Of a stretch of DNA of 64,000 bases, positions 7,499-30,889 are shown in pieces. Origin of the DNA: Halorussus gelatinilyticus (GTDB lineage Archaea > Halobacteriota > Halobacteria > Halobacteriales > Haladaptataceae). The notes beneath the pieces are model-generated. The model was not told where the DNA came from, did no database searches, and was given only the letters and a program-made list of their open reading frames with translations. The translations under genes and the position numbers were made by a program. Position 1 is the stretch's first letter; each line of letters opens with the position of its first letter. The stretch is taken from contig NZ_CP096658.1 in assembly GCF_023238445.1 (NCBI RefSeq), forward strand, positions 3,162,001 through 3,226,000. The letters run 5' to 3'.

Positions 7499-8230
7499 CT
7501 ATAAACGCTCGTCGGCGACGTCGGTCGCGTCGAACGCCGCCTCGATTCGCTCTCGTCGGCCGTCCAACACGTCGAACCGCTCGTCGCGTCGGAGTTCCAA
7601 CCACCGGAGCAGGCGCTCGGCCCACGCCAGCTTCTTCGCCTTCACGGGGTCCACGTCGGGGTCGTCGAAGTCCCACCCGACGAACCGGAGTTCGGCCGCG
7701 CCGAGGTGGTCCGCGAGGAACGCCGCCCGGTCGCCGTCGGTGAACCCGCCGACGTTCCGGACGTGCGCGACCGGCCGGGACTGGGTCGTCGGCAGGACCC
7801 ACTCGTCGTCGAATCGGGGGACCCACTCCCGGACCGCGGGCACGTTGTCGCCGTGGGCGTGGACCGCGACCGGGGTGCCCTCTCGGGTCAACTCGCGGGC
7901 AGTTTCGGGGTTCTTGTCCACGTCCGTCACCATGCAATCGACGCCCACGCCGGCGTCTCGGAGGTGGTCGGCGGCGGTCGAAGCCGCGAAGACGGCGTCG
8001 GCGTCGCACGCGCGGTCGAGTTCGGCCGGGCGCTCGGGGTGGTCCGGGTCGGTCAGCGACGGGCCGGCACCCGCGATGGCGACCGTCTCGCCCGACGCGT
8101 CCAACTGGCCGAGGTCGAACGGCTCGGTCAGGTCGGCCAGCACGTCGCGGGCGCGTTCGTCGCTCTCGCGGTCGAAACCGAAATCGGCCAGAATCCGCTC
8201 GTAGACGGGACTCCACGTTTCGTAGTTCAT
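7499..8230 (-). CDS. mptE: 6-hydroxymethyl-7,8-dihydropterin pyrophosphokinase, MptE type
   Basis: A 243-residue protein of the archaeal MptE family (unrelated in fold to bacterial FolK). MNYETWSPVYERI is the usual start. The glycine-rich loop VAIAGAGPSLTD, the DADAVFAASTAADHL segment and the MVTDVDKN motif are the hallmarks. It would transfer pyrophosphate from ATP to 6-hydroxymethyldihydropterin, making the direct substrate of dihydropteroate synthase. The dihydropteroate synthase gene lies 105 bases upstream on the same strand, which supports the call. The start at 8230 is chosen over one at 8260 because the extra ten residues do not match the family. Confidence 0.88.
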   Translation of the reverse strand: MNYETWSPVYERILADFGFDRESDERARDVLADLTEPFDLGQLDASGETVAIAGAGPSLTDPDHPERPAELDRACDADAVFAASTAADHLRDAGVGVDCMVTDVDKNPETARELTREGTPVAVHAHGDNVPAVREWVPRFDDEWVLPTTQSRPVAHVRNVGGFTDGDRAAFLADHLGAAELRFVGWDFDDPDVDPVKAKKLAWAERLLRWLELRRDERFDVLDGRRERIEAAFDATDVADERL

Positions 8231-8335
8231 GACAGAATCGCTTGAGCCGGAAGTTCGCAAGCAAGTACCCCTACCCGCGAGCGCCCTTCCGGCTTCCCAA
8301 ACCCGGATTCTGTCTCCCCCGGCATAAGTTTTCTC

Positions 8336-9490
8336 TTACTGTTCCGCGTCGTTGACAGCATCGAGGGCTTCGACCAGTCGGTCGGAGGCCCCGTCCGCCT
8401 CGGATTCGTCGGCCACGCGCGAGCGCAGGCGACCGAACGCGGCCGGCGTTCCCGCGAGCAGGACGCCCGCGGTACCGGGCGCGACGGTGACGCCGGCGTC
8501 CACCGCGGTCGCGGCGAGCGTCTCGCGCTCGGCGTCCGAGAGGGCGGACAACTCGAACACGCGCGTCGCGGTCTCGGCGGCCGCCTCCGGGTCGGCCCCG
8601 ATTCGGTCGAGGTGACGGGCGGCCTCGCCCGCGTTGGTCACGTCCAACTCCTCGACGCCGAGGTCGCCGTCGCGGAGTCGGTCGCGGGCGAAGGCGTCGC
8701 CGATTTTCGCCGCATCGAGGGTCTCGGCCACGTCGTGGGTTCGAATCACGTGCGCGCCGCGTTCGACCGCCATCGAGGTCGCCGCGAGCGAGACCGGCAG
8801 GGCCTCCTCGGTGCTTCGGCCCGCGAGGTCTCGGAGGAAGTTCTTCCGGTTGATGGAGACCAGAATCGGCTGGCCGAGACCGCGGAACTCCCGGAGTCGC
8901 CGGAACGTCTCGCGGTCGTCGTGGAGGGTCTTGGCCTCCGACCAGCCGCCGAACGCGGGGTCCACGATGGTCTTCTCGGTCAGACCCTCGCGCTTCAGCG
9001 CGTCGTAGATGTCGTCCGGTTTCTCTATCGCGCCGGGGCGTTCGAGGTCGGGCGGACTCGCCATCTTGACCGCGGCGGCGTCGCGCTCTCGACACACGTC
9101 GGGCATCCGCGGGTCGGCGAAGCCGCAGATGTCGTTCACCATGTCGAACCCGCGCGAGAGTGCCTCGTCGGCGACCACTGCGTACCGAGTTTCGATGGAG
9201 AAGACGGCGTCACCCGACACGCTCTCGATGGCCTCGACCGCGGTGTCGAGGCGGTCGAGTTCCTGCTCGGCCGAGAGGACCTCGAAGCGCTTGTTCGCGG
9301 ATTCCAGCCCCACGTCCACGATGTCCGCGCCCTCGTCGATGAGTTCGGAATCGACGTACCTGGCGGCCTCGCCGGGGTCGTCGTAGACGCTCGGGTCGTA
9401 GGGCGACTCCTCGCTGACGTTCAGCACGCCCATGATTCGGGGCGGGTAGTCGTCGCCGATGCCCAAGCCCGCGGCGGTGACGTTCTGCAT
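8336..9490 (-). CDS. folP: dihydropteroate synthase
   Basis: A 384-residue protein. Residues about 1-270 form the pterin-binding TIM barrel: IMGVLNVSEESPYD, IVDVGLESANKRFE, MVNDICGFADP and ILVSINRKNFL correspond to the family's pterin and pABA sites. It joins a pABA-type amine to hydroxymethyldihydropterin pyrophosphate, the step after MptE, whose gene is next downstream. About 110 extra C-terminal residues (GVEELDVTNAGEAARHLD onward) have no counterpart in bacterial FolP. The usual FolP motif reads NxTPDSFSDGG; here it is NVSEESPYDPS, as in many archaeal forms. The ATG at 9490 is chosen because the upstream extension is hydrophobic and unrelated. Confidence 0.85.
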   Translation of the reverse strand: MQNVTAAGLGIGDDYPPRIMGVLNVSEESPYDPSVYDDPGEAARYVDSELIDEGADIVDVGLESANKRFEVLSAEQELDRLDTAVEAIESVSGDAVFSIETRYAVVADEALSRGFDMVNDICGFADPRMPDVCRERDAAAVKMASPPDLERPGAIEKPDDIYDALKREGLTEKTIVDPAFGGWSEAKTLHDDRETFRRLREFRGLGQPILVSINRKNFLRDLAGRSTEEALPVSLAATSMAVERGAHVIRTHDVAETLDAAKIGDAFARDRLRDGDLGVEELDVTNAGEAARHLDRIGADPEAAAETATRVFELSALSDAERETLAATAVDAGVTVAPGTAGVLLAGTPAAFGRLRSRVADESEADGASDRLVEALDAVNDAEQ

Positions 9491-9656
9491 GTCGGAAGCC
9501 GAGGCCGGGAGAAATAAAAAGGAGGCTGTTCCGGCGAGCGAAGTCCCCCGCACGTTTCCGTCGTCGCTACGCGGCGACCGACCCGACGGACCGACCGAAG
9601 CCCATTAATCGCCCGCCCGCCAATCGACGCGAGACGCGAACCGCTACTCGCCGAAC

Positions 9657-10265
9657 ATGTCCATCCTCGTCATCGACAACTACGACTCGTTCGTCCACAA
9701 CCTCGTCCAGTACGTCGGCGAGTTCGACCCCGAGGTCACGGTCCGGCGCAACGACGCCGTGACCCTGCCGGAAGTCCGGGACCTCGACCCGGACGGCATC
9801 GTCGTCTCGCCCGGTCCGGGCACCCCCGCGGACGCCGGCGTCTCGATTCCGCTGTTCGAGGAGACCGACTACCCGATTCTCGGCGTCTGTCTCGGCCATC
9901 AGGCGCTCTGCGCCGCCGAAGGCGCGACGGTGGGCCACGCGCCCGAGGTGGTCCACGGCAAGCCGTCGCCGGTGACCCACGACGGCGCGGGCGTCTTCGC
10001 GGGTCTTCCCGACCCCTTCGAGGTCGGGCGATACCACTCGCTGGCGGTCGAACGCGCCGAGATTCCCGACACGCTCGACGTCGCGGCGCGGACCGTCGAT
10101 ACCGAGTCCGCAGAAGAAGGAGGAGGAGGCGAAGAGGCGAGCGTCGTCATGGCGGTCCGCCACCGCGAGCGTCCCCACGTCGGCGTACAGTTCCACCCCG
10201 AGAGCATCCTGACCGACGCGGGGAAGCGACTGGTCGAGAACTTCTGTGCGTCCTGTCGGTCCTGA
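9657..10265 (+). CDS. glutamine amidotransferase, anthranilate/aminodeoxychorismate synthase component II
   Basis: A 202-residue class I glutamine amidotransferase. ILVIDNYDSFVHNLVQY is the classical TrpG/PabA start. GVCLGHQALC holds the catalytic Cys and HPESIL the His, with a Glu two residues on. It supplies ammonia to a TrpE or PabB partner. No such partner lies next to it; the divergent neighbour is dihydropteroate synthase, so a role in p-aminobenzoate supply for folate-type pterins is an attractive inference. A small Glu/Gly insertion (AEEGGGGEE) lies near residue 155. TrpG and PabA cannot be told apart from one sequence. Confidence 0.85.
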   Translation: MSILVIDNYDSFVHNLVQYVGEFDPEVTVRRNDAVTLPEVRDLDPDGIVVSPGPGTPADAGVSIPLFEETDYPILGVCLGHQALCAAEGATVGHAPEVVHGKPSPVTHDGAGVFAGLPDPFEVGRYHSLAVERAEIPDTLDVAARTVDTESAEEGGGGEEASVVMAVRHRERPHVGVQFHPESILTDAGKRLVENFCASCRS

Positions 10266-10280
10266 CGGGAAACCGAGCGC

Positions 10281-10724
10281 TCAGCGGACCTCTGCCTGTC
10301 GAACGTGGTCGAGCCACTCGTCCAGCCACTCGCGGCCGAGATACTCGACCGAGCGCTCGGTCGGGTCGTACCGCACGACGCCGTGAGACTCCAGTTTCGG
10401 CAGGTGGGCGTGGTGGAGTTCGACCGCTAGCGAGCGCGCTTCGGTCACGTCCTCGAAGGTCCGGTCGCCCGCGGCGTCCCACCGCTTCGACGCGACCGCC
10501 GCGGCGAGCGAGTCGAGCGAGAGGACGGTTTCGTCGCTCTCGGCGAGGCGGACGAGCGCGTCTCTGCGCAGCGGGTCGGCCAGCAGCGCGAACGCGGCGT
10601 CCAGTTTCTCGGACGATTCCTCGCCCGTCCGCAGGTCGGCTGTCGGGACCCGCGGGGTCCCGGAGGTGTTCGGACCCTCCTCCGAGGGCGGCGTCGCTCC
10701 GCCGTCGCTCCGGTCGTCCGGCAC
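10281..10724 (-). CDS. winged-helix type regulatory protein (DUF7344-like)
   Basis: About 147 residues. A disordered N-terminus of about 45 residues is followed by a domain beginning LDAAFALLADPLRRDALVRLAE and ending LHHAHLPKLESHGVVRYDPTERSVEYL. This is the layout of the haloarchaeal winged-helix proteins often called DUF7344: helix, HTH, then a beta wing. A similar protein is at 49802-50203. It probably binds DNA; its targets are unknown. The frame has no ATG near its start. GTG at 10724 or TTG at 10730 are the candidates, and GTG is preferred. Confidence 0.65.
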   Translation of the reverse strand: MPDDRSDGGATPPSEEGPNTSGTPRVPTADLRTGEESSEKLDAAFALLADPLRRDALVRLAESDETVLSLDSLAAAVASKRWDAAGDRTFEDVTEARSLAVELHHAHLPKLESHGVVRYDPTERSVEYLGREWLDEWLDHVRQAEVR

Positions 10725-10820
10725 GTTCAACTCCGCCCCCGAGTCGTCCGTCCCGCCTGGACGGACCGTCGCGGCCAGTCGGCACGTTGCAACGTTAGCA
10801 TGAGTCTCACTACGCCGGAG

Positions 10821-10843
10821 CCAAGCATAAACGGATTGCTTGG
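10821..10843. promoter_or_regulatory. 7-bp inverted repeat with 9-base spacer, possible operator
   Basis: CCAAGCA and TGCTTGG face each other across nine bases in the 179-bp divergent gap between the winged-helix gene and the aminotransferase gene. The half-site spacing fits one turn of DNA. An autoregulatory site of the adjacent winged-helix protein is a reasonable guess. Confidence 0.35.
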
Positions 10844-10874
10844 ACTGTCAACGTCGGATTCGTTTCCCCGAACG

Positions 10875-10880
10875 TTAATT
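10875..10880 (+). promoter_or_regulatory. TATA-like element for the aminotransferase gene
   Basis: TTAATT is centred about 27 bases before the GTG at 10904. That is the spacing expected between a haloarchaeal TATA box and the start of a leaderless transcript, and it decides the start codon chosen for that gene. Confidence 0.45.
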
Positions 10881-10903
10881 TCTCGGTGGTCCTACACCGG
10901 GAC

Positions 10904-12058
10904 GTGTTTCCCGACATCGCGTATCTCGACTGGATCACCGGGCGACCCGAGACCGCCGAGTACGACCTCGGGTCGTCGGACCTCCGGCGCGCGCCCGCCG
11001 GACCCGACGGGGTGGTGCCGCCGGCGCTCACGGGCGTCGTGGCCGGCGAAGCGACCCTGCGGGACCGTCTCGCCGAAATCTACGGCGTCGAATCCGAGAA
11101 CGTCCTCGTGACCGCAGGCGGGACCCACGCCAACTTCCTCGCGGCCGCGGCGGCCGTCACCGACGCGGAGGCCGCCGCGCGAGCGGCCGAGGAGTCCGGC
11201 GACGGCGGGAACGGCGGCGTGAGCGACGGCGAATCCACTGCGACCCCACGCGTATTGGTCGAGAAACCCGGCTACGAACCACTGCGCGCGACCCCGGACG
11301 CGGTCGGCGCGACCGTAGATCGGTTCCTCCGGACGCCCGACGACGGCTACCCGCTGGACCCCGGCCGCGTGGACGCCGCGCTCGTGGCGGACACCGCGCT
11401 CGTCACGGTGACGAACCGCCACAACCCGAGCGGTCGGCTGACCGACCGCGAGACGCTGGCCGAGACCGCCCGCGTCGTCGGCGACGGCGACGCGCGACTC
11501 CTCGTGGACGAGGTGTACGCCCCCTTCCGCGCCGAACCGGGCGAGGGTCCCTTCGGCGGTCCGACGGCGGCCGGACTCCCGAACACGGTCGTCACGAACT
11601 CGCTGACCAAGTTCTTCGGCTTCGGCGACGTCCGAATCGGCTGGCTCGTCGCCGACGCCGCGTTCGTCGAGCGCGCGCGTTCGGTCGCCCACCACGTCCC
11701 GGCGGTCGCGGAGCCGAGCCGCCGACTCGCTGGCCGGGCGCTCGCGGCCGCCGACCGCCTCGCCGAGGGGTCCCGCGAGCGCGTCCGGACAAACCGCGCG
11801 GCGCTGGCGGAGTTCGTCGCCTCGCGCGCGGACCTCTCGGGCCGCGTCGAACCGGGGTCGCCCTACGCGTTCCTCGCCCACGACGCGGCCGACGGCGACG
11901 ACGTGGCCGCGGCCGCGAGCGCGGCGGGCGTGCTGGTCGTGCCGGGGCGCTTCTTCGACGACGCCGAGCGCTTCCGCGTCGGCGCGTGTCAGGACCCCGA
12001 GCGCGTCCGGGCCGGGCTGGACCGCCTCGGCGGGGTGCTGGACTCGCTCGCGGAGTGA
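10904..12058 (+). CDS. PLP-dependent aminotransferase, class I/II
   Basis: A 384-residue fold-type I PLP enzyme. Recognisable parts are LVTAGGTHANFL (phosphate-binding region), VTNRHNPSGRLTD (the NPTG-like motif), RLLVDEVYAPF (Asp for the pyridine nitrogen) and TNSLTKFFGFGDVRIGW with the Schiff-base Lys at about residue 236. The substrate cannot be stated; the family includes broad amino acid and histidinol-phosphate-like aminotransferases. The protein starts FPDIAYLDWITGRPE after a GTG at 10904. An in-frame GTG six codons upstream (10886) is less likely given the TATA-like box spacing. An Asp/Gly-rich insertion follows residue 90. Confidence 0.8.
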   Translation: MFPDIAYLDWITGRPETAEYDLGSSDLRRAPAGPDGVVPPALTGVVAGEATLRDRLAEIYGVESENVLVTAGGTHANFLAAAAAVTDAEAAARAAEESGDGGNGGVSDGESTATPRVLVEKPGYEPLRATPDAVGATVDRFLRTPDDGYPLDPGRVDAALVADTALVTVTNRHNPSGRLTDRETLAETARVVGDGDARLLVDEVYAPFRAEPGEGPFGGPTAAGLPNTVVTNSLTKFFGFGDVRIGWLVADAAFVERARSVAHHVPAVAEPSRRLAGRALAAADRLAEGSRERVRTNRAALAEFVASRADLSGRVEPGSPYAFLAHDAADGDDVAAAASAAGVLVVPGRFFDDAERFRVGACQDPERVRAGLDRLGGVLDSLAE

Positions 12059-12178
12059 CGCCGCCGGATTCGACCGTCCGCGGAGCGACCCGACCCCGCG
12101 AGTCGGACAGTTCACCTCGTGGATGTTTTCGCTCACCTCTGCCAAAAGTTAAGACCCGCCCTCACATTCGTTGTCGAT

Positions 12179-12472
12179 ATGGACGGCACTCCGCAGGAGA
12201 TTACGAACCTCGTCGGACGGGAGGTGTACTCCAACAACGGCGTCTTCGTCGGGGAAGTCGAAGACGTGCGCCTGAACGTAGAGGCGTGTACCGTGACGGG
12301 AATCGCCCTCGGCGAACTCAACCGCGACCTGTTCGCCGACGTGGTCGGCAACGAGAACGGCGTGATGATTCCGTACCGCTGGGTACGCGCGGTCGGCGAC
12401 GTGGTTCTCATCAACGACACCATCGAGCGACTCCAGCAACCCGAGGCCGAAGACGAAGAAGTCGCGGTCTGA
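12179..12472 (+). CDS. PRC-barrel domain protein
   Basis: A 97-residue protein that is essentially one PRC-barrel. It has EITNLVGREVYSNNGVFVGEVEDVRLN, then GIALGELNRDLF, MIPYRWVRAVGDVVLI and an acidic tail. Such small beta-barrels occur in RNA metabolism (RimM-like) and in photosynthetic reaction centre H subunits. The free haloarchaeal forms are conserved but of unproven role. The ATG at 12179 gives a clean domain start, preceded by an AT-containing stretch (AAAAGTTAAG) about 30 bases upstream that could be a promoter. Confidence 0.8.
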   Translation: MDGTPQEITNLVGREVYSNNGVFVGEVEDVRLNVEACTVTGIALGELNRDLFADVVGNENGVMIPYRWVRAVGDVVLINDTIERLQQPEAEDEEVAV

Positions 12473-12899
12473 CCGCCGTTTTCGAGCCTCTTTTCGGTGG
12501 TGTGGCCGGGATTGGAGAACGGTTGGGATAGCCGAGGTCGGTATTGGCAATTTCCCCGAGACAGAGAAGCGATGGTCGAAATCTACGAGAAGCTAGCTTC
12601 AGGCTTGAGCCTATCATACCGCCAACCGCACCGCAACTGCCAGCATCGCCACCGCGCCCGCACAACATCGCCACCGCGACTGCACAACATCGCCACCGCA
12701 ACTGCACAGCACTGCAATCGCGGGCCTCACACCTCCCCAACCGCTTCCTTCGCTTCGCTCAGTCATCCCTCGCGCGGTCGGCGCGTCGTCTCGCGGTCCG
12801 CGAGACGACACGCCCGCACGCGCCAGTCCGGAATCCAATCGAGCGCGAGCAGAGTGCGAAAATCAGACCGAGAGCGCCAGGAACGTCGAAATCGTAGCG
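12473..12899. repeat. gene-free gap with short tandem repeats and palindromes
   Basis: Between the PRC-barrel gene and the end of the TrkA-N/DHH gene I see no convincing gene on either strand. The gap holds (a) AAGCTAGCTT and AGGCTTGAGCCT, two small palindromes near 12590-12612; (b) an imperfect tandem repeat at about 12639-12714 built on a 22-base unit (ACATCGCCACCGC core, two near-identical copies at 12661-12704 plus partial copies on each side); (c) a perfect 12-bp inverted repeat around one base at 12785-12809 (GTCGTCTCGCGG). The Cys-free, His/Arg-rich reading frames here are a by-product of the repeats. Confidence 0.6.
12785..12809. repeat. perfect 12-bp inverted repeat
   Basis: GTCGTCTCGCGG, one T, then the exact reverse complement. 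The stem is GC-rich and would be very stable. It sits 90 bases beyond the stop of the minus-strand TrkA-N/DHH gene, so it could help end that transcript, or it may be a REP-like repeat. Confidence 0.55.
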
Positions 12900-19303: not shown

Positions 19304-19531
19304 ATGGCCGACAACCGCGTCGTGCAGGGTCGCATGGTGACGCCCGAGGCCCTCGCGGAACTCATCGAAGGCGAGGACGTGATGGACGCCGAAGCTATCT
19401 CGGAGACCGACCGCGAGTGTCCCGACTGCGGCGGGGACGTACTCGAAGTCGGGTACATGCCGAGCGTGACGGAGTTCGTCACCGGGTGGAAATGCCAAGA
19501 CTGCGACTGGGCCGACACCGACCGCGACTGA
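19304..19531 (+). CDS. DUF5795-type zinc-ribbon protein
   Basis: A 75-residue protein starting MADNRVVQGRMVTPE. Its C-terminal half holds two zinc knuckles, CPDCGGD and CQDCDWADTD, joined by VLEVGYMPSVTEFVTGWK. A helical N-terminal half (ALAELIEGEDVMDAEAI) precedes them. It fits a small haloarchaeal zinc-ribbon family that I recall as DUF5795, next to the DUF5794-type membrane gene. The role is unknown; a nucleic-acid or protein contact is likely from the fold. Confidence 0.78.
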   Translation: MADNRVVQGRMVTPEALAELIEGEDVMDAEAISETDRECPDCGGDVLEVGYMPSVTEFVTGWKCQDCDWADTDRD

Positions 19532-19539
19532 GAAAAATC

Positions 19540-19553
19540 GAAACCCCTTTACA
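19540..19553 (+). promoter_or_regulatory. promoter of tRNA-Trp
   Basis: GAAACCCC (a BRE-like stretch) is followed by TTTACA at 19548-19553. This lies about 28 bases before the first base of the mature tRNA, the spacing of an archaeal TATA box. Confidence 0.5.
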
Positions 19554-19577
19554 GTGACTGGACCAACGGATTCCTGC

Positions 19578-19757
19578 GGGGTCGTGGCCAAGTCAGGGAT
19601 GGCGACTGACTCCAGAGGCAACGCGCCTGGGACGAAACTCCAGCTGATATACCGAGCGGCCGACTGATCATCGGTCCGCGACGACGACCCTCTGGAGTTC
19701 CGAGGCGCACACACCGGAGATATCAGTCGATCGGGGGTTCAAATCCCTCCGACCCCA
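19578..19757 (+). tRNA. tRNA-Trp (CCA anticodon) with a 106-nt intron
   Basis: The exons are 19578-19615 and 19722-19757. The acceptor stem GGGGTCG pairs with CGACCCC and A is the discriminator. The D-stem is GCCA/TGGC. The anticodon stem ACTGA/TCAGT closes the loop C-T-CCA-G-A, and the T-arm has TTCAAAT. The intron (19616-19721) lies after base 37, the usual archaeal place, where a bulge-helix-bulge is cut by the splicing endonuclease. Haloarchaeal tRNA-Trp introns are known box C/D guide RNAs for methylation of C34 and U39. Here intron bases 19690-19698 (CTCTGGAGT) are the exact complement of 19609-19617, which span the anticodon. Confidence 0.95.
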
Positions 19758-19797
19758 CTCCGTAAATAACTCTTTCGCAGGCTTTTACTGCCACTAA

Positions 19798-21143
19798 TCC
19801 GAGTTAAATCCGTTAGCGAGAATTACCGTCGAACAGGAGTCGGTGACGTCCGAAGAGATCGCTGAGATGCGGGATACAACGGAGCTTTCAGTTGAGGCCG
19901 AAGTAAAGTAGACAGTGGGGAAAGACGGCAGCCAAAACGCATTAATCACTCATGGTTCGTTCATCCTCGGCGTCAAAACCACCGACGACGGTGGAGACCT
20001 CGGTGCGGTGGACGAGACCGTCCAGATCAACAACCAGAAGTTGAGCGTTTCGACCTCGTTGACCGCGGGGCAGGCGCTCTCGGGTACGGTCGACCTGACG
20101 AGCAAGTTTACGGTTCAGAACAACGACGGGAACGAAATCGTCTACGAGTACAGCACCGACGGCGGTTCCTCGTGGTCGACGGTTAGCCCGCCGAGTCGTT
20201 CGACACGACGACCCTCGACGAGACGACGGTCGTCCTGAAAGCAAGTTCCAGTGACGCAGCGGGTAACACCGGTAATGCCCAGAAGTCGGTCACCGTCGAC
20301 AACGAAGACCCGACGCTGAAGAACGCTTGGATTACGAAGGCCGATAGCTCCGGTACCGAGGTGAAAATCACGTTCAACGAGCAGGTCGACATCTCCACCA
20401 TCAGCGCCTCGGACGTCCAAATCGCCGGTAGCACTGTCGATAGCATCGTTGCCGGAAACGCTGGCGGCTCGACGTCGCTCACGGTCAAGGTGAACAGCGA
20501 ACTTCAGACAGCTACGAAGCCAAAGGTCGCAATCAGTGGCGGCTACACTGAGACGACCGGCGACACGAAGGTCAGCGGTGACACGGTCGTTCACACGGCT
20601 CGGCTCGACCTGAGTCAGGGCGAGAACTTCGTGTCGGTACCCGCCGCGGCGGGCGCGCTCGACGTCAGCAACCTCGACTCCTCGAACATCGAGCAGATAA
20701 TCACGTACGAGAAGTCGGCAGATGGCAGTAACTGGCAGTTCCACAGCTTCGACGGAAACTCGAAGAACGACGACTTCGACTACCTCGAAGGCGGTCAGGG
20801 GTACATCTTCGTGATGAGTTCCGACGACACGGTCGACGTGAACGTCCAGAACGTGCCCGCGTCGGTGGCACCCGGCGAGGAATCCCTCGAAGAAGGGTGG
20901 AACTTGATCGGTCACTGGCAGGAAGGGAGCCAGAACGCGAACACGGCTCTCTCGTCGCTGAACTCCGGCACCATCGGTGACACGGTCCACCAGATGTACG
21001 AGCAGAGCGACGGCTCGAACGGCTTCAGCTACACGTCGGTCGACTTCAGCAGCTCGACGACGGACAAGCTGTCGCCCGGTGAAGCGTACTGGATCTTCGT
21101 CAAGGACGACGAGGTCTACACCGAGGCCGGATACGCCAGCTAA
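19798..21143 (+). pseudogene. decayed surface-protein gene with in-frame stop and frameshift
   Basis: One coding stretch can be followed through two lesions. The first part (ITVEQESVTSEEIAEMRD) runs into TAG at 19909-19911. The same frame continues after it (VGKDGSQNALITHGSF, TVDLTSKFTVQNNDGN) to about 20187. There the frame shifts by one missing base in a C run; reading SPAESFDTTTLDETTVVLK requires one more C. The rest (to 21143) has Ig-like domain features (KSVTVDNEDPTL, VKITFNEQVD) and a C-terminal module of haloarchaeal surface proteins (LDLSQGENFVSVPAAAGALD, YLEGGQGYIFV, EGWNLIGHW, YWIFVKDDEV). There is no signal peptide, and the 5' end begins 40 bases from tRNA-Trp. GC is lower than in neighbours. 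A sequencing error could explain the frameshift, but not also the stop and missing N-terminus. Confidence 0.7.
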
Positions 21144-21193
21144 CCGCAACCCAACTCCATCTCTACGCAGTATTTGGAGGTAAGTAATACGAA

Positions 21194-21967
21194 ATGACAA
21201 CACGTACGAAACAGAAGCGTACCGGTCTGCGGTTCCTGGCGGTCTGCCTCGCTGTCGCGGTAGCACTCGGGGCTGTAGGTGCCGTCGCTGGAACGCCACC
21301 GATGCCCCCGCATCAAGTGTCCGGGACGATCACCGACCAGAACGGAGACGCGGTAAGCGGTGTCTCCGTCGAGATCGTCTACGACGGGACGGTCATCAAC
21401 CAGACGACGACCGACAGCGACGGCTACTACGAGTTCAAGGTGCCGGACCCGAACGACGATAAATCGGGCGAAACGCTGTCGTTCGTCGTCGACGGTGACG
21501 ACACGGGCAAGCAGGTGACGTGGTCGTCCCCCGAATCGAGCCGAGTCGACTTCACCGTCGAGACGGACACTGGCGGCACCAGTACACCGGACGACGGCTC
21601 AGACGACGACTCGGATAACGACGACTCGAATAACCACGACTCGGACAACGACGGTTCCAGCGGGAGTCCGGGCGCCGGAAGCGGCGGCAACCAGAACGAC
21701 CAAAACGACAGCAGCGAGACGCAGGACACCGTAGACGAGGACCTGGACAGCACGACCGAAGGCGCGAAAAACGACGACGAATCGAGCGAGACGAAGACGG
21801 CAACCGTCGAACCCACCGAGGAGACGGCGGTAGACACGACGACCGACGAGCCGGCCTCGACTGAATCTACGACCACGACCGAAGGTGGCGATGGCGGCAT
21901 CCCCGGCTTCGGCATCGGCGTCGCGCTCGTCGCTGGTGCGCTCCTCGTCGTTCGCCGCAGCGCCTGA
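21194..21967 (+). CDS. PGF-CTERM surface protein with carboxypeptidase-regulatory-like domain
   Basis: A 257-residue secreted protein. It has a Sec signal peptide (RFLAVCLAVAVALGAVGAVAG), then one Ig-like carboxypeptidase-regulatory domain (SGTITDQNGDAVSGVSVEIVYDG). A long Asp/Ser/Asn/Thr-rich stalk follows, and the C-terminus is GIPGFGIGVALVAG then LLVVRRSA. PGF followed by a hydrophobic segment and RR is the PGF-CTERM signal, which archaeosortase A cleaves while the protein is lipid-anchored. The stalk is suited to O-glycosylation. It lies 50 bases after the decayed surface gene and may once have formed a pair with it. Confidence 0.85.
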   Translation: MTTRTKQKRTGLRFLAVCLAVAVALGAVGAVAGTPPMPPHQVSGTITDQNGDAVSGVSVEIVYDGTVINQTTTDSDGYYEFKVPDPNDDKSGETLSFVVDGDDTGKQVTWSSPESSRVDFTVETDTGGTSTPDDGSDDDSDNDDSNNHDSDNDGSSGSPGAGSGGNQNDQNDSSETQDTVDEDLDSTTEGAKNDDESSETKTATVEPTEETAVDTTTDEPASTESTTTTEGGDGGIPGFGIGVALVAGALLVVRRSA

Positions 21968-22196
21968 ACAGTTCGCTAACTACCGGACTCCCCGGTTCGA
22001 ATTTCGTTTTTTGGAAGAAGTGTCGAACTCGGTAGCGGTCCGTTCTGCTGGAGAGCATCACCGCGCCTCGACCGCGGTCAGTGTGATTCCAGTCGTCCTC
22101 GTTCTCCAGCACGTCGCCGAGACGTTCGGGGAAATCGTCGCGGTAGAGGAGGTAGGTTCCCCACTCCCGCAGGCCGCCTTCGGTTCGCGCCACCAT
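21867..22196 (-). CDS. hypothetical protein, overlapping the PGF-CTERM gene antisense
   Basis: The frame starts MVARTEGGLREWGTYLLYRD and continues DDFPERLGDVLENEDDWNHTD. Through about residue 70 (RYRVRHFFQKTKFE) its codon third positions and acidic content are typical of a true haloarchaeal gene. After that it runs 101 bases antisense into the PGF-CTERM gene and becomes Arg/His-rich, like a shadow frame. A plausible reading is a real gene whose natural 3' end was replaced when the surface-protein module arrived. The family is not recognised. Confidence 0.45.
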   Translation of the reverse strand: MVARTEGGLREWGTYLLYRDDFPERLGDVLENEDDWNHTDRGRGAVMLSSRTDRYRVRHFFQKTKFEPGSPVVSELFRRCGERRGAHQRRARRRCRSRGCRHRHLRSWS

Positions 22197-22232
22197 CTTG
22201 AAATACCTCCTCTACACACCCTGTCGTAACTC

Positions 22233-23417
22233 ATGCTCGACCTGCGGACGGTCGCCCTCGTCGCGCTCGTCCTCCTCGCGGGGTGTAGCGGCGGACTCGG
22301 AGGAACGACGACCCCCGACGCGACGACCTCGACCGCACCGACGGAGACTACCACGACACCGAACGCGACCGCTTCGCTGACCGAGACCACCGCCACGACC
22401 ACCACCACCGAAGCGACGACCGCCCCGGCTACATCGACGACGGCCTCCACAGAGACGCCGACGACGGCATCTACTGGGATGCCGACGGCCACCGACGAAC
22501 GGACCGACGTCGAGAACCCGTGGGGCAGGCGGAACGTGACGGTCGCGGTCCGGAACACGGCCAATCGGTCGCGGAACGTCGCGCCGTTGGTCGAGCGGAC
22601 GCTGGCCTACTGGAACGGTGAGGGAAGCGAGTACGCCCACTACGACGTGACCTTCGTGCCGACTTCGGAGGTCATCGAGGCCGACGTCGTCGTGGAGTTC
22701 GTCAAGCGAATCGAGTCCTGCAACGGGACCGACACCAACTCCACGGTCGGGTGCGCGCCGCTGCTCGACGGTCGGGCCGTGCCGAGCGACCCCGCGCGGG
22801 TCCAAGTCGTCGCGGGTTACTCCAACCAATCGACCGTCGAGATTCTGAAACACGAGTTCGGGCACGTCGTCGGCGTCGAACACGGCGAGGAGCCGATGCC
22901 GACGATGCAGGCGATGTCGGCGGTCACGCACCTGTCGCAGCCGGACCTGCGCGACCGGGCGGTGCCGTGGCACAACAGCACGCTCGCGGTCCACGTGGAC
23001 GTGTCGGCGCTCCCCGGCCACGAGCGCGAGGCGGCGCGCGAGCAGATTCGACACGCGCTCGACTACTACGAGTCGGGTGCCGACGGTACCGTACCGAGCA
23101 ACGTCTCGTTCGTGCGCACGTCGAACCGGTCGGCCGCGGACGTGCGGATTCAAATTCCGGACGAGGCGTTCGACTGCGGCGGCGAGCGCCTGCGGGAAGG
23201 CTCGTGTGGCGAATCGTGGGTCTACGACACCGACACCGACGACGCGCCGGAGTACTTCGCCAGCTACGACGTCCGCGTCCGGGGCATCGACACCGACGCT
23301 ATCGGCTGGCACGTCGGCTACTGGCTCTCGGACGCGATGGGCCTGACCGAGGCCGAACTTCCGTCACCGTTCGTGGACGCGGATTACGACGAGCGTCGGA
23401 GCGAGTGGTGGACGTGA
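22233..23417 (+). CDS. secreted metalloprotease-like lipoprotein (matrixin-type zinc site)
   Basis: A 394-residue lipoprotein. The signal peptide ends LVLLAGCSGG with the lipobox Cys. A Thr-rich linker of about 70 residues follows, likely glycosylated. The body contains EILKHEFGHVVGVEHGE at about residues 203-219. HEFGHVVGVEH is the HEXXHXXGXXH zinc motif of metzincins (His207, Glu208, His211, His217). The remainder has pairs of Cys (SCNGTD, GCAPL; DCGGE, GSCGE) that could form disulfides. It would act outside the cell on proteins or peptides. Its place just upstream of the lanthipeptide genes makes it a candidate leader protease, but nothing in the sequence proves a link. Confidence 0.8.
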   Translation: MLDLRTVALVALVLLAGCSGGLGGTTTPDATTSTAPTETTTTPNATASLTETTATTTTTEATTAPATSTTASTETPTTASTGMPTATDERTDVENPWGRRNVTVAVRNTANRSRNVAPLVERTLAYWNGEGSEYAHYDVTFVPTSEVIEADVVVEFVKRIESCNGTDTNSTVGCAPLLDGRAVPSDPARVQVVAGYSNQSTVEILKHEFGHVVGVEHGEEPMPTMQAMSAVTHLSQPDLRDRAVPWHNSTLAVHVDVSALPGHEREAAREQIRHALDYYESGADGTVPSNVSFVRTSNRSAADVRIQIPDEAFDCGGERLREGSCGESWVYDTDTDDAPEYFASYDVRVRGIDTDAIGWHVGYWLSDAMGLTEAELPSPFVDADYDERRSEWWT

Positions 23418-23522
23418 CGAGTGAATGGTGAGCCGGTAAAATTCGATTTTATCTATCTTATCTAAACCCCTCAACAGAGGATAACAACCCTTAACCTCTC
23501 GTCGTACGCCATCGTGGATAGA

Positions 23523-26500
23523 ATGACTGCCGTCTTCACCGACGAAGACCGCCGCGAACTCGCCGGGCGTGCGCGGACGCTCGCGGAACGTCTCGACGGC
23601 CCGGCCAACGTCGCCGAGTCGTCGCCGCCCATCGACCCCGAACGCGTCCTCGACGAGTGGAGAGCGACGTTCCCCGACGAGGAGGCGTTTCGGGCGCGAC
23701 TCGCGCGCGACGACCTCACCGAGGCGGCCGTCCGCGAGCAGGCGGCGGCGACGCGCTGGCCCGCCGACGAACCTCTGCCCGACTGGGTGGACCGACTCTC
23801 GGCGCTCGTCCGACGCGTCGAGGCGAGTACCGCGGACGACCGGGACGCCGGGGCGATACCCGACGAAACGCCGTTTCGGGAGTTGCTCGCGGCCGTCGTG
23901 AGCTTCGCCCGCGAGCGGGTGTCCGTCGAGGCGGTCCCGACGGAGACGCTCTCGTCGCTGGAGCGCCAACTCGCGGGGCGACTCGAATCGCTGTGCGTCC
24001 GGGCGCTGTACGTCGAGTTCAAGAGCTTCGTGGAGTACCACGACCCCGAACTGGCGGCGACGAGTCCCGACGACGTGGCCGAACCGCCCACCGACTACTA
24101 CGAGCGGTTCGTCGCGGCGATGTTCGACGGCGGTTTCGATAACCTGTGTCTGGAGTACCCGGTGCTGGCGCGCCAGTTGGTCTCGCTCGTGGACGACTGG
24201 CGGAACGCCGTCGAAGAACTCTGCCGGCGCGTGGCGGCCGACCGCGACGCCCTGCGCGAGCGGTTCGACGTTCGCGGAGACGTGACCGGCTTAGAAGCGC
24301 TCACCGAGGACGCCCACGCCGGCGGCCGGGTCCCGGTCCGCGTCGCCTTCGAAGAGGGCGCGGTCGTCTACAAGCCGCGGCCGGTGGGCGGCGAAATCGC
24401 GGTCTACGAGGTCCTCGACCGCTTGGACGACCACCTCTCGACGCCCGACTTCGAGACGCCGTCGCTGCTCGCGCGCGACTCGTACGGCTGGATGGAACTG
24501 TGCGAGTACCGCGACCTCCCGGACGCCGAGGCGGCCGACGACTACTACGAGCGGGCGGGGACCCTGCTGTGTCTCGCGTACGTCCTCAACTTCACCGACT
24601 GTCACTACGAGAACGTCGTCGCGGAGGGGGACCTGCCGACGATTCTCGACGGCGAGACGGTCTTCCACCCGCACGTCGAGTCCGAGGCCAAGCCCTTCGA
24701 GACCGAAGCCAGCGCCGCGGTGGACCGGTCGGTCCTGCTGTCGGTGCTGTTGCCGTTCTCGGTCGGCGACCCGCGCGCGGACCGCGGCGGCCGGTTCGCC
24801 GACAAGGTCGCCGGACTCGGGAGCGACGGCGAGGAGACGGCCCTCCCCGGAAAGTCCGAACCGACCATCGAGGCGGTCAATACGGACGTGATGTCGGTCG
24901 AGATGGACCCCGTGACGGTGGACCCGAATACCAACACCCCGTCCGCCGAGGGTTCGGACCGACCGCCCGAGGAGTACGTCGAGGCCCTGATTCGCGGGTT
25001 CGAGGAGACCTACGAGACGGTCCGGGACCTACGCGAGGCGAGCCGATTCCTGTCGGAAATCGCCGACCCCGAACTGGTCGCGGGCGTCGAGACGCGACTG
25101 CTCTACCGCTCGACGGGGCGCTACGCCGAAGTCCTCCGGTCGGCGGCGGCTCGGAATCCGCTCCGGGACGGCGCGCGACTGACCGTCGAGTTCGAGGAGT
25201 TGGCGGTGCCGTTCTTCGACGGGACCGTCGAGTCCGACCGGCTCTGGGAACTGTACGCCGCCGAGCGACGCTCGCTCCGGAGACTCGACGTGCCGCGGTT
25301 CGCGTCGCGCGCCGACGAGCGGACGCTGTTGCACCGCGGCGAGCGACTCGACGGGACGGTAGACGTGACGGGCTACGAGTTCGTCCGCCGGCGACTCGAC
25401 GCGATGAGCGACGAGGACCGGCGACGCCAGACGTGGCTGATTCGGCAAGCGGTCGGCGAGGTCACGACGGCGGAGGGGCCGCCGCCGTCGGGTAGCGAAG
25501 CGTCCGGTGGCGAGGCGGCCGGGGAAAAACCCCAGCAGGCGGACCGCTTCCGACGGGCGGCCATCGACTGCTTCGAGGGGGCGATGGACGCGCGGGTCGA
25601 AGTGGGCGACGACCCCGGTTGGGTGTCCATCGTCCCGGAGTCGGGTATCAACCTCTATCCGGCGGACGACTCGCTGTTCTGGGGCCGGGGCGGCGTCGCG
25701 CTGACCGCGGCGGCGCTGGCCGAGATGACGGGTCGAGAGCGCTACCGAGAGTTCGCCGCGGAGGCGCTGGCTCCGGTCGTCGAGCGCGTCTTCGACGGGA
25801 GCGTCGAGTTCGCCCACGGCGGGATGCAGGGAATCGGCTCGGTGGTTTACGTCCTCTCGGTCGCCGCCGAACTGCTCGGCGAGGACCGCTATCGGGAGGC
25901 CGCGTTGGCGGCGACCGAGACCGTGACGGGAGAGCGCGTCGCCGACGCCGACACGTTCGACGTGGTGGACGGCGTTGCGGGGACGCTACTCGGCCTGCTG
26001 GCGTACTACGAGCGGTACGGTGATGCCGAGGACGGCGGCGATGGCGGCAAGGGCGGCGGCGAAGACGGCGGTGAAGGCGGCGACGAGGTGCTGGCGCGCG
26101 CGGCCGACTGCGGCGACCGACTGCTCGACGCGCGGACCGACGTGGACGGCTACCGCGTCTGGGAGACGACGGGCGACGAGGTGCCCTACACCGGGTTCGC
26201 ACACGGGTCGAGCGGCATCGCGTACGCGCTCGCTCGCCTCGCGGCCGCGACCGACGACGACCGATACGCCGAGGCGACGCGGGAAGCGCTGGAGTTCGAG
26301 TCGTCGCTGTACTCGCCGTCGCGGACCAACTGGCGACAGGCCGCGACCCGCGAGTCGTATCAGGACCGCTGGTGTCACGGCCGGACGGGGATGGCGCTCG
26401 CTCGAATCGGCATCGGCGAGCGACTCGGCGACGACGCGCTCGTGGCCGACGCCGGCGACGCGCTGGCCGCAACCGGGACCGGCGAAGCGTCGAACCTCGA

Positions 26501-26759
26501 CAACCTCTGCTGTGGCAACTTCGGCCGGGTCGAAGCCCTGCTGGTCGGCGCGCGCCGCGCCGGATGCGACGACGCGCTCGCCGGCGAACTCGCGGCGCGG
26601 TGTCTCGCCCGCCGGGAGCGCGAGGGCGTCCTCTCGCTTCCGGCACACGACTCGTCGTTCGCGAATCCGACGCTCTTCGACGGCGTTGCCGGGCCGTCCT
26701 ACGCTCTCTCGCGCCTCCTGAACCCGGACGCGCTTCCCTGCGTCCTCCTGCTGGAGTGA
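23523..26759 (+). CDS. lanM: class II lanthipeptide synthetase LanM
   Basis: A 1078-residue bifunctional enzyme. The N-terminal dehydratase (to about residue 640) phosphorylates and eliminates Ser/Thr of a precursor peptide. It holds the kinase-like residues in order: VVYKPRP (Lys284), TDCHYEN (Asp359, His361, Asn364), and ILDGETVFHP (Asp376, Glu378). The C-terminal LanC-like domain (about 690-1078) joins Cys thiols to the dehydro residues on a zinc ion. It has FAHGSSGIAYAL, WCHGRTGMAL (Cys951) and NLCCGNFGRVEAL (Cys996/997). The second zinc motif is CCG, not the usual CHG, giving a three-Cys site as in ProcM-type synthetases. A Gly/Asp-rich insertion lies near 835-855. GTG at 23514 is an alternative start. 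The precursor gene follows 236 bases downstream. Confidence 0.95.
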   Translation: MTAVFTDEDRRELAGRARTLAERLDGPANVAESSPPIDPERVLDEWRATFPDEEAFRARLARDDLTEAAVREQAAATRWPADEPLPDWVDRLSALVRRVEASTADDRDAGAIPDETPFRELLAAVVSFARERVSVEAVPTETLSSLERQLAGRLESLCVRALYVEFKSFVEYHDPELAATSPDDVAEPPTDYYERFVAAMFDGGFDNLCLEYPVLARQLVSLVDDWRNAVEELCRRVAADRDALRERFDVRGDVTGLEALTEDAHAGGRVPVRVAFEEGAVVYKPRPVGGEIAVYEVLDRLDDHLSTPDFETPSLLARDSYGWMELCEYRDLPDAEAADDYYERAGTLLCLAYVLNFTDCHYENVVAEGDLPTILDGETVFHPHVESEAKPFETEASAAVDRSVLLSVLLPFSVGDPRADRGGRFADKVAGLGSDGEETALPGKSEPTIEAVNTDVMSVEMDPVTVDPNTNTPSAEGSDRPPEEYVEALIRGFEETYETVRDLREASRFLSEIADPELVAGVETRLLYRSTGRYAEVLRSAAARNPLRDGARLTVEFEELAVPFFDGTVESDRLWELYAAERRSLRRLDVPRFASRADERTLLHRGERLDGTVDVTGYEFVRRRLDAMSDEDRRRQTWLIRQAVGEVTTAEGPPPSGSEASGGEAAGEKPQQADRFRRAAIDCFEGAMDARVEVGDDPGWVSIVPESGINLYPADDSLFWGRGGVALTAAALAEMTGRERYREFAAEALAPVVERVFDGSVEFAHGGMQGIGSVVYVLSVAAELLGEDRYREAALAATETVTGERVADADTFDVVDGVAGTLLGLLAYYERYGDAEDGGDGGKGGGEDGGEGGDEVLARAADCGDRLLDARTDVDGYRVWETTGDEVPYTGFAHGSSGIAYALARLAAATDDDRYAEATREALEFESSLYSPSRTNWRQAATRESYQDRWCHGRTGMALARIGIGERLGDDALVADAGDALAATGTGEASNLDNLCCGNFGRVEALLVGARRAGCDDALAGELAARCLARREREGVLSLPAHDSSFANPTLFDGVAGPSYALSRLLNPDALPCVLLLE

Positions 26760-26962
26760 CTCGCGCTCGATCCGAGACCGCCGTTCCTCGACGCCGCCTG
26801 TGGGTGTCGTTTTCCGTCCGACGAAAACCGACGCGCAACCACGAGGTATAATATTACTTACTGTAACTGCGGTGATGACGTGAGATAGTGTAGTATTTCT
26901 CCCATCCTTCCAAAATATTTAGAGTCGGGAACAAGCTTAATATATTAAAATACACGAAAAGA

Positions 26963-26970
26963 TTTAATAT
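26963..26970 (+). promoter_or_regulatory. TATA box of the precursor-peptide gene
   Basis: TTTAATAT lies in a markedly AT-rich stretch (about 26848-26970), with its centre about 29 bases before the ATG at 26996. It predicts a separate, nearly leaderless transcript for the precursor, so the peptide could be made in excess over the synthetase. GGAGG at 26976-26980 is probably too far from the ATG (15 bases) to act as a ribosome site. Confidence 0.55.
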
Positions 26971-26995
26971 TTTCCGGAGGCACGAATAGCTTGCA

Positions 26996-27145
26996 ATGTC
27001 AGTTGCAATCGAAGCCGACGCTGGTAGCAAGGAACAGTACGACAGCGAGTTCACCGTCGAGACGTCCACCGAGGACGTGCCGGAGCAGGAAGTTGGCCAC
27101 CGCGACGGCTGTGGCTTCACGTGCAGTCCGTTCTCGACCTTCTAA
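26996..27145 (+). CDS. lanA: lanthipeptide precursor peptide
   Basis: A 49-residue peptide on the same strand as lanM. The leader (about 1-38) starts MSVAIEADAGSKEQ and is strongly acidic, ending EVGHRDG, without a GG or GA protease site. The proposed core is CGFTCSPFSTF: two Cys (39, 43) and four hydroxy residues (Thr42, Ser44, Ser47, Thr48), with all the peptide's Cys in the last eleven residues. This split between a charged leader and a Cys/Ser/Thr-rich C-terminus next to LanM is what a class II precursor should look like. Both Cys precede most Ser/Thr, so rings would run with Cys on the N-terminal side, as in cinnamycin. An exact cleavage site cannot be fixed. A T5 tract follows at 27172. 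Confidence 0.82.
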   Translation: MSVAIEADAGSKEQYDSEFTVETSTEDVPEQEVGHRDGCGFTCSPFSTF

Positions 27146-27171
27146 ACGGTCGATACAGGAATCGAGCTTCA

Positions 27172-27176
27172 TTTTT
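27172..27176 (+). terminator. T5 tract after the precursor gene
   Basis: TTTTT lies 26 bases after the precursor's stop codon, in the convergent gap before the lipoprotein gene, and probably ends the short precursor mRNA. Confidence 0.4.
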
Positions 27177-27289
27177 CGCGCGGCAGTCGAACCTCGCCAG
27201 TCGCGGGTCCGCGACGAGCGCCGCGTTCACTGAGACGACTCCTTTCGAGTAGCATCGTCGTCGCGCTCGGCCGTCGCGCCCGATTGGCG

Positions 27290-27757
27290 CTACGCCGACC
27301 TCGGTTCGTCGTAGAAATCCGGGGAGATGCCGAACGTCTCGTCGGACCGATAGAGAATCGCGTACTCGATGAACCGATAGTCGTGTATCGAGTCGTCCCA
27401 CCGGTCCAGAACGTCGGACAGCGTGACCGACATCGGTTCGCCCTCCGCGGGCACGACCTCGACGCCGTATCTCGACGGTTCGCTCATCCACGGTTTCTCG
27501 ATGAATTCGTAGTCCGCCTGACCGTCGCGTAACGCCGCGAGCCGAATCGTATCGCCGGATTTCACGGTCTCTCCGTCGATTACCTTCACCTCGAACTCGA
27601 CGGGCACGCTGGCGGCGTTCTCGACGAACACGTCGTCCAGCGCGTAGGTCACGCTTCGCTCCGAAAGGTCGGAGAGCGAACCGAGGCACCCGGCGGTGAG
27701 CGTCGCGCCCGCGACGGCGATTCCCCGAATCGCGCTCCGGCGCGTATGACGAGCCAC
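27290..27757 (-). CDS. Tat-type lipoprotein, hypothetical
   Basis: A 155-residue lipoprotein from a GTG start (MARHTRRSAIRG). The twin-Arg, a hydrophobic core and the lipobox LTAGC predict Tat export and lipid anchoring on the outer face. The mature part looks like a beta-sandwich: VFVENAASVPVEFEVKVIDGE, GDTIRLAAL, YGVEVVPAEGEPMSVTL. The family is not recognised. It converges on the lanthipeptide precursor, with 144 bases between. Small lipoproteins serve as immunity proteins in some bacterial lanthipeptide loci, so that role is possible but unsupported here. No ATG exists near the signal peptide; GTG at 27757 is the fitting start. Confidence 0.65.
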   Translation of the reverse strand: MARHTRRSAIRGIAVAGATLTAGCLGSLSDLSERSVTYALDDVFVENAASVPVEFEVKVIDGETVKSGDTIRLAALRDGQADYEFIEKPWMSEPSRYGVEVVPAEGEPMSVTLSDVLDRWDDSIHDYRFIEYAILYRSDETFGISPDFYDEPRSA

Positions 27758-27858
27758 GTCGAGCGTGTCCGGCGAGTCGATATCAGTTTTTCGACTGACA
27801 GCTCCGCCGGGCGTCACGAGACGGCGATAGCCGACGAACTCCGGGTCGGAACGCGGCC

Positions 27859-27902
27859 GGACAGCGGCCGGAACGCGACCGGACTGCGGCCGGAACGCGG
27901 TG
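27859..27902. repeat. 22-bp imperfect tandem repeat
   Basis: Two copies of a GGAC(A/T)GCGGCCGGAACGCG unit follow each other, with a further partial copy just before. They lie in the 250-bp divergent gap between the lipoprotein gene and the gene at 28008. No function is apparent. Confidence 0.5.
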
Positions 27903-28007
27903 ACGAGAGGGGCGACTCGACCGGGTCGACCCCTTCGCGGGAGGACCGAGCCTTCCCTCGAAATCAGCCACAACAGTAACCCGTCCGAGTCCACTATCAA
28001 ACACGGA

Positions 28008-28637
28008 ATGACCACCCACCACCTCGCCTCGTGGCTCGTGAAACACAGCGACATCCCGCTCACCGTCGTCAAGCCAGTCGCCACCAAACTCGGCGTCTCG
28101 ACCAACTACCTCGGCGCGGCGCTGTTCGCGGGCCAGATCGTCTACGAGAATCAGGGTGCCATCGTCAAGTACGCCGACCGGGGCGGCGTCAAGGTCGGCG
28201 AGTTCCTGCACCGCCGCGCGGTCGAGCGCTACGGCGAGGACCACGCGCTGACCCGGCACCTCGGCGAGAACGTGGCGGCGCTGGACGAGGCCTTCGAGGG
28301 GAGCGAGGAGGAGGCGGTCACGTTCGCGGAGTTCTACCGACAACTCCGGACGATAGACCGCGACACCCCGAGTCTCGCGCCCGCGGCACGACTCCCCAAC
28401 ACGGACCTGCCCGACGCGAATCTGCCGGAGGACGCGCTACCCGACGTGGATTTGTCCGACAAGCGCCTGCCGGACGTTGACCTGTCGGGCGTCGTCGGCG
28501 GTGCGACGGGTGCGGTCGCCGACCAGCGCGACCGCTTGGCCGACCTGCGAACCGAGTTCGGGTCCGACGGAGAGACCGACTCGGACTCCGAGTCCGAGAG
28601 CGAGAGCGTCGAGATTCCCGTCGTGGACGAGAAGTGA
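28008..28637 (+). CDS. hypothetical protein with LPD-type repeats
   Basis: A 209-residue protein starting MTTHHLASWLVKHSDIPLTV. Residues about 1-125 are a compact, mostly helical domain (TKLGVSTNYLGAALFAGQIVYE, VERYGEDHALTRHLGENVAALDEAF). Residues about 125-165 contain a short repeat of pattern LPDxxL (LPNTDLPDANLPEDALPDVDL). A tail rich in Ser, Asp and Glu follows. The sequence suggests a soluble protein or one peripherally attached through the amphipathic N-terminus. I do not recognise the family. A T5 tract lies 43 bases after its stop. Confidence 0.65.
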   Translation: MTTHHLASWLVKHSDIPLTVVKPVATKLGVSTNYLGAALFAGQIVYENQGAIVKYADRGGVKVGEFLHRRAVERYGEDHALTRHLGENVAALDEAFEGSEEEAVTFAEFYRQLRTIDRDTPSLAPAARLPNTDLPDANLPEDALPDVDLSDKRLPDVDLSGVVGGATGAVADQRDRLADLRTEFGSDGETDSDSESESESVEIPVVDEK

Positions 28638-29389: not shown

Positions 29390-30889
29390 ATGACAGGCGG
29401 GTCGCGCTTGCCGGGGATGCCCGACGACGAGGAGGGAGACCCCATCGTCCTCCACGTCGACATGGATTGCTTCTACGCGGCGTGCGAGCGGCGGCGCGAA
29501 CCGCGACTGGAGGGCGAACCCGTCGTGGTCGGGATGGGCTACGAGGGCGGCGAGACCCACGGCGCGGTCGCCACCGCGAGCTACGAGGCCCGCGAGTACG
29601 GCGTGGACAGCGCCCAAGCCATCTCGACCGCGCTCGAACGCCTCCCGCGGATGGCCGACGCCGAGGACCCCGACAGCGACGCGGACCCCGACGACGCGGG
29701 CTACTACCGGCCGGTGGACATGGACTACTACGAGGCGGTCAGTTCGGAGGTCAAGGAGATCCTCCACGAATCGGCCGACGTCGTGCGGGAAGTCAGCATC
29801 GACGAGGCGTACCTCGACGTGACCGACCGAACCGCGTGGGAGGTCGCCGAGGGGTTCGCCCGCCACGTCAAACACCGCATCGACCGCGAGGTGGGCGTCA
29901 CCGCGAGCGTCGGCGTCGCGCCGAACATGTCCGCCGCCAAAATCGCCAGCGACCACGACAAGCCCGACGGTCTCGTGGTGGTCGAACCCGGCGAGGTCCG
30001 GGAGTTTCTGGCACCGCTCGACGTGGCCGAGTTGCACGGCGTCGGTCCGGTCACGGCCCGCGAGTTGCGCGAGATGGGCGTCGAGACGGCGGCGGACCTC
30101 ACGGACGCCGACCGCGCCGCGCTGGAAGACCGGTTCGGCGAGCGCGGGGCGGAGATGCACCGCCGGGCGCGCGGCGAGGACCAGCGCGAGGTCACGCCCA
30201 CGGGCCGGCCCAAGAGCCTCTCGCGGGAGTCGGCGTTCACCGAGGCGACCGACGACGACGAGCGGAAGCGCGACCAGATTCGCACCCTCGCGGAGGCGGT
30301 GGCCGACCGCGCCCGCCGGAAGGGCGCGATGTACCGGACCATCGGCATCAAGGCCGTGACGCCGCCCTACGACGTGAACACTCGCGCGAAGTCGCTCCCC
30401 GGCCCGGTGGACGACCCGGAACTGGTCGAGGAGGTCGCTCTCGACCTCTTCGCCGAGTTCGCCGGCGTCGAGGTCCGGAAGGTCGGCGTCCGGGTCTCGA
30501 ACCTCTCGTTCGCCGACGGCGAGCAGGCGAGTCTCGGCGACGGGTGGGAGTCGAGCGCGGACGAGCGGGACGGCGACGCCGAAGGCGACGGCTCGGACCC
30601 GGACACCGACGACGGACAGGTCTCGCTCGGTCGGCGGCGGGACGGCGATTCCGAGTCGCCCGATTCTCCCGAATCGGGCGACGGACGCGACGACGGGGGC
30701 GACGAGACGGCGCGAGACGACCCCGACGGACAGCTCTCGCTCGCCCGCGAGTGGGAGGGCGCGGACGGCGCGTCCGACCAATTGGCCGTGAGCGACCGTG
30801 AGGGCGAGAACTCCACGGACGACGGCGAGACGTCCGAGAGCGACGACTCGGACCCCGAGGGACAGGTCTCCCTCGGCGACTTCGGGTGA
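29390..30889 (+). CDS. dinB: DNA polymerase IV (Y family)
   Basis: A 499-residue translesion polymerase. The catalytic palm motifs are VLHVDMDCFYAACE and REVSIDEAYLDV (Asp-Glu). The thumb has HGVGPVTARELREMG, and the little-finger domain ends near residue 375. A halophilic insertion DAEDPDSDADPDDAG lies near residue 98. The C-terminal 125 residues are disordered and acidic and hold four copies of a QxSL motif. Only the last, QVSLGDF (492-498), is a proper PIP box for binding the PCNA clamp. MPDDEEGD at 29417 is an alternative start. Confidence 0.95.
   Translation: MTGGSRLPGMPDDEEGDPIVLHVDMDCFYAACERRREPRLEGEPVVVGMGYEGGETHGAVATASYEAREYGVDSAQAISTALERLPRMADAEDPDSDADPDDAGYYRPVDMDYYEAVSSEVKEILHESADVVREVSIDEAYLDVTDRTAWEVAEGFARHVKHRIDREVGVTASVGVAPNMSAAKIASDHDKPDGLVVVEPGEVREFLAPLDVAELHGVGPVTARELREMGVETAADLTDADRAALEDRFGERGAEMHRRARGEDQREVTPTGRPKSLSRESAFTEATDDDERKRDQIRTLAEAVADRARRKGAMYRTIGIKAVTPPYDVNTRAKSLPGPVDDPELVEEVALDLFAEFAGVEVRKVGVRVSNLSFADGEQASLGDGWESSADERDGDAEGDGSDPDTDDGQVSLGRRRDGDSESPDSPESGDGRDDGGDETARDDPDGQLSLAREWEGADGASDQLAVSDREGENSTDDGETSESDDSDPEGQVSLGDFG

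Follow-up and report, generated by a model that had tools for sequence, protein, structure and literature searches.

A haloarchaeal lanM–lanA locus predicted to encode a close analogue of archalan α

Introduction

The best described relative of the locus reported here is archalan α, the first structurally defined archaeal lantibiotic, whose source is Halorussus salinus YJ-37-H and whose core is GCGFTCSPFSSW (Liang et al., Microbiome 2023, PMC10105419). Its two rings, a methyllanthionine (MeLan) between C2 and T5 and a lanthionine (Lan) between C6 and S10, were assigned by MS/MS and NMR; Ser11, next to the ring-closing Ser10, stays unmodified, and the peptide inhibits related haloarchaea (PMC10105419). 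The alnα and medb clusters both give products when expressed in Haloferax volcanii (Angew 2025, PMC12144867), that of medb being medlan B, an analogue of archalan α (PMC12144867). Medlan B, of Haloferax mediterranei, is described as having a pair of thioether rings and as acting on a similar range of haloarchaea (PMC12144867). Activity against haloarchaea has been published for archalan α, archalan α2 and medlan B, and the trimming of archaeal lanthipeptides has been attributed in the literature to generic host proteases.

We analysed a lanthipeptide locus in a 64,000-nt stretch of haloarchaeal DNA, called the window throughout; coordinates are window positions, and all locus features lie on the + strand. 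A preliminary description had recognized here a class II lanthipeptide locus consisting of a LanM and a 49-codon precursor, which is right, but had also thought that the pairing and the core looked new, which they are not: the core, GCGFTCSPFSTF, is identical to that of archalan α at 10 of 12 positions, with both changes (S11T and W12F) outside the rings, and the LanM–LanA pair belongs to the known alnα/medb family. Judged by its sequence, the locus is real and of the already known archalan α type, not new in kind. We put at roughly 0.93 the probability that it makes a close analogue of that peptide, [T11,F12]-archalan α.

Results and discussion

The LanM enzyme

The lanM gene (23523..26759, from an ATG, with a GTG at 23514 as a possible alternative start) encodes a class II lanthipeptide synthetase of 1078 aa, recognized by Pfam and NCBIfam matches. 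An N-terminal DUF4135-type dehydratase domain (residues 212-595; Pfam DUF4135, 1.9e-88) is joined to a LanC-like cyclase domain (residues 713-1076; Pfam LANC_like, 3.4e-48), and the score against the NCBIfam LanM model TIGR03897, 631 bits, is about twice its cut-off of 304 bits. All six dehydratase residues stand at exactly the positions that the preliminary description gave when it called the enzyme complete: Lys284 (codon 24372..24374, counted from the ATG at 23523), Asp359, His361 and Asn364 within DCHYEN (24597..24614, aligned with LicM2), and Asp376 and Glu378 within DGE (24648..24656). The cyclase zinc site, likewise called intact, does hold three ligands, although in the Cys-Cys-Cys (CCG) form instead of the classic Cys-Cys-His: alignment places them at Cys951 in WCHG (26373..26375) and at Cys996-Cys997 in the CCG motif (26508..26513), so that the third ligand is Cys997, not a His. 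The same three cysteines occur in 25 of the 26 haloarchaeal LanMs that we aligned.

The CCG motif is described in the literature for promiscuous LanMs and for Halorussus LanMs. The ProcM-type CCG LanMs of cyanobacteria share the three cysteine ligands with the window enzyme, whereas at our locus a single precursor was found, whose leader is not of the Nif11 type, and nothing pointed to a large substrate set. This LanM is the single LanC-domain protein of its own genome, in which no second LanM or other LanC-domain protein was found.

Two departures from the usual residues were seen among the haloarchaeal LanMs compared. At the position of His361 nearly half of them have Gln or Ser (L031, L032, L039, L043, L044, L045 and others), the other dehydratase residues being kept. 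One full-length LanM (L016; G002 contig 12, 1501-4617) has F, R and G in place of all three zinc cysteines, and is possibly a dehydratase-only enzyme.

The precursor gene

Downstream of lanM lies lanA (26996..27145, ATG to stop), which encodes an archalan α-type precursor of 49 aa, MSVAIEADAGSKEQYDSEFTVETSTEDVPEQEVGHRDGCGFTCSPFSTF, assigned by its homologues. The leader (residues 1-37, 26996..27106) carries a KExYDxEF recognition-type motif and ends in HRD, the cleavage site being taken from the published archalan α core; the core (residues 38-49, 27107..27142) has predicted rings C2-T5 and C6-S10. The leader fits the haloarchaeal pattern Kx(Y/F)(D/E)xx(F/Y), with an additional residue separating K from Y in the window form, KEQYDSEF; the other three members found below share this feature.

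When 392 genomes of the order were searched in translation, the precursor was strongly matched in three other genomes, G024 (1.2e-25), G019 (8.5e-22) and G079 (3.0e-14), in each of which the homologue runs from M to stop beside a homologous LanM. Identities to the window precursor are 94, 73 and 59%, the first being that of G024 over the whole length. Over the four precursors 29 positions are invariant, HRDGCGFTCSPFS among them. Codon changes between the window and G024 number 0, 3 and 8 at the first, second and third positions, and across the four genomes lanA substitutions fall mainly at third positions, with dN/dS <1 in all pairs. Because the frame is conserved beside LanM, with this third-position bias and low dN/dS, lanA is by comparative evidence a real gene under purifying selection; four-genome conservation and third-position bias also rule out a chance open frame. 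The 49-codon precursor thus stands as it had been described, and so does the pairing of the small frame with LanM, which is kept in G024, G019 and G079.

The proposal that lanA has an AT-rich promoter of its own also gains support. A TATA-like element, TTTAATA (26963..26969), lies about 27-30 nt upstream of the ATG and has a counterpart at similar distance in 4 of 4 genomes, the remaining upstream DNA having diverged in the alignment; its promoter function is presumed. A sigma-70 style promoter scan of the locus was disregarded as not applicable to archaea.

Conservation of the pair and relation to archalan α

LanM identity to the window enzyme is 81% in G024, 73% in G019 and 69% in G079, and each of these LanMs adjoins a GCGFTCSPFS precursor. 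The four enzymes beside such precursors form one clade in the tree (support 100/100), and the pair is thereby found in two congeners (G024 and G019) and one genome of another family (G079). Among 391 genomes of the class, a sample drawn without G024, the exact core pattern was matched in three (the window's own, G019 and G079), and a scan of genome contigs for LanM gave just two further, more distant enzymes (53-54%), with other cores. Two further cores in G024, those of archalan β and sallan, are known from the H. salinus strain and mark this genome as H. salinus or a very near relative; G019 also carries the pellan core and can therefore be regarded as H. pelagicus-like. By the same token, the genus of the window is very probably Halorussus.

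The window locus and the alnα cluster of H. salinus are alike in their class II LanM, their leader motifs, the HRD|G junction and core positions 1-10, and the alnα cluster occupies the same genomic position in G024 as the pair does in the window. They differ in that the archalan α precursor has 48 aa and a core ending in SW, whereas the window core ends in TF, its leader is one residue longer and its LanM is 81% identical; moreover, a substrate-binding lipoprotein gene and an MCP-type transducer gene that separate a matrixin-like gene from lanM in G024 are both absent at the window locus. The G019 and G079 precursors, whose core is GCGFTCSPFSSW, also agree with the window core up to position 10. 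The gene order differs in G079, where lanA precedes lanM and adjoins an ABC ATPase-permease pair; in the window lanA follows lanM. The exact core GCGFTCSPFSTF did not come up in a literature search of full texts, though it may be present in supplementary lists.

Elsewhere, the L043 locus (G006, 7913-12740 in reverse complement) has four different precursors around one LanM, with MS(V/I)... leaders, a YD(A/S)(E/Q)F motif and differing Cys-rich cores.

Genomic surroundings and exporter

The archalan α pair lies in a hotspot of variable gene content that is common to the genus. The hotspot is bounded by a gene for 75 aa (19304-19531, beside a DUF5794 gene) and by the gene at 28008-28637, and lies upstream of a Y-family DNA polymerase-like gene at 29390. 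The interval (19532-28007) measures 8.5 kb in the window, and about 8.5-9.6 kb over the window and G024, against about 1.2-2.3 kb in four congeners without a LanM there (G012, G026, G021 and G023). The same interval in another genome (G016, locus L088) is likewise free of LanM; it encodes a LivK-like substrate-binding lipoprotein together with an MCP transducer.

Neither an exporter nor an immunity determinant was identified at the window locus. Outside the genus an ABC ATPase-permease pair stands beside lanA/lanM in G079, Haloferax gibbonsii and Halocatena salina, and two homologues of the G079 permease are encoded elsewhere in the window's genome.

Leader removal

The preliminary description had noted that the leader lacks a GG site and that its maturation cannot follow the LanT route, and both statements are correct. 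The leader ends in HRD, not in the GG or GA that, together with a C39-peptidase ABC transporter, marks LanT-matured lantibiotics, and no Peptidase_C39 domain (LanT) was matched in the window's own genome. This state is normal for the archalan α family and not peculiar to our locus, because in published archalan α the core likewise starts at the D|G junction, and generic proteases are invoked for its kind. As the genome is without a C39-type LanT, non-dedicated host proteases would most likely cut the leader, between Asp37 and Gly38.

A more specific candidate lies next to lanM: a matrixin-like lipoprotein gene (22233-23417) with a Peptidase_M10 match, a metalloprotease motif (HEFGHVVGVEH) and, close to the N-terminus of its product, a lipobox-like LAGC. 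We consider it improbable that this is the dedicated leader peptidase of the cluster, even though the gene is adjacent to lanM both here and in G019, and near it in G024, while its orthologue is found elsewhere in LanM-less congeners. A relative occurs in 18 of 18 genomes of the genus, LanM-less ones included, so the lipoprotein is not lanthipeptide-specific; the 19 kb of sequence surrounding the G079 pair yielded none; and products form in H. volcanii from both the alnα and the medb cluster, with generic peptidases invoked for archaeal lanthipeptides. The fuller claim, that it is a dedicated extracellular protease cutting Asp|Gly and travelling with the archalan α genes in Halorussus, is more doubtful still. 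We know of no leader protease yet assigned to an archaeal lanthipeptide, and this one, if the assignment were true, would be the first.

The proposed product

For [Thr11,Phe12]-archalan α, the reading that we prefer, the ring pattern, cleavage site and activity are inferred from the published homologue. All ring-forming residues (C2, T5, C6 and S10) and the D|G site are the same as in archalan α; because positions 1-10 are unchanged, Thr5 and Ser10 would by analogy be dehydrated, and Cys2 and Cys6 would then add to them. In the proposed pathway lanA, lying downstream of lanM, would be transcribed from a TATA promoter of its own, and LanM would bind the acidic leader via the conserved KExYDxEF, phosphorylate Thr5 and Ser10 of the core, and then eliminate them. 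The zinc (Cys3) cyclase domain would join Cys2 to Dhb5 and Cys6 to Dha10, closing two rings that do not overlap, and the mature peptide, once freed of its leader, would probably inhibit related haloarchaea.

Potency could be altered by the two substituted residues, and Thr11 might itself undergo dehydration or rival Ser10 as the partner of Cys6. It is very unlikely, in our estimate, that S11T redirects the chemistry so far as to give a distinct lanthipeptide, through a third dehydration (Dhb11) or a second ring closed at 11 instead of 10. Thr11 does adjoin the ring-closing Ser10, where the other three precursors have Ser, and the CCG zinc site is associated with tolerant LanMs; against this, the neighbouring Ser11 of archalan α escapes modification, residues inside the rings are all invariant, and the LanM is close to that of G024. 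Least probable of all is that the pair is silent or a decayed remnant, as the missing exporter pair might suggest, given intact catalytic residues, a precursor under purifying selection and a conserved promoter-like element.

Taken as [Thr11,Phe12]-archalan α, the product would open no new principle; the locus adds a natural two-residue variant of archalan α, with which the part played by the C-terminal SW in activity can be probed. With the two predicted dehydrations, the calculated [M+2H]2+ of the window peptide is 609.241, against 627.252 for the unmodified form and 600.236 for one dehydrated three times; as a check on the masses, the calculated value for archalan α is 621.739 against a published 621.738.
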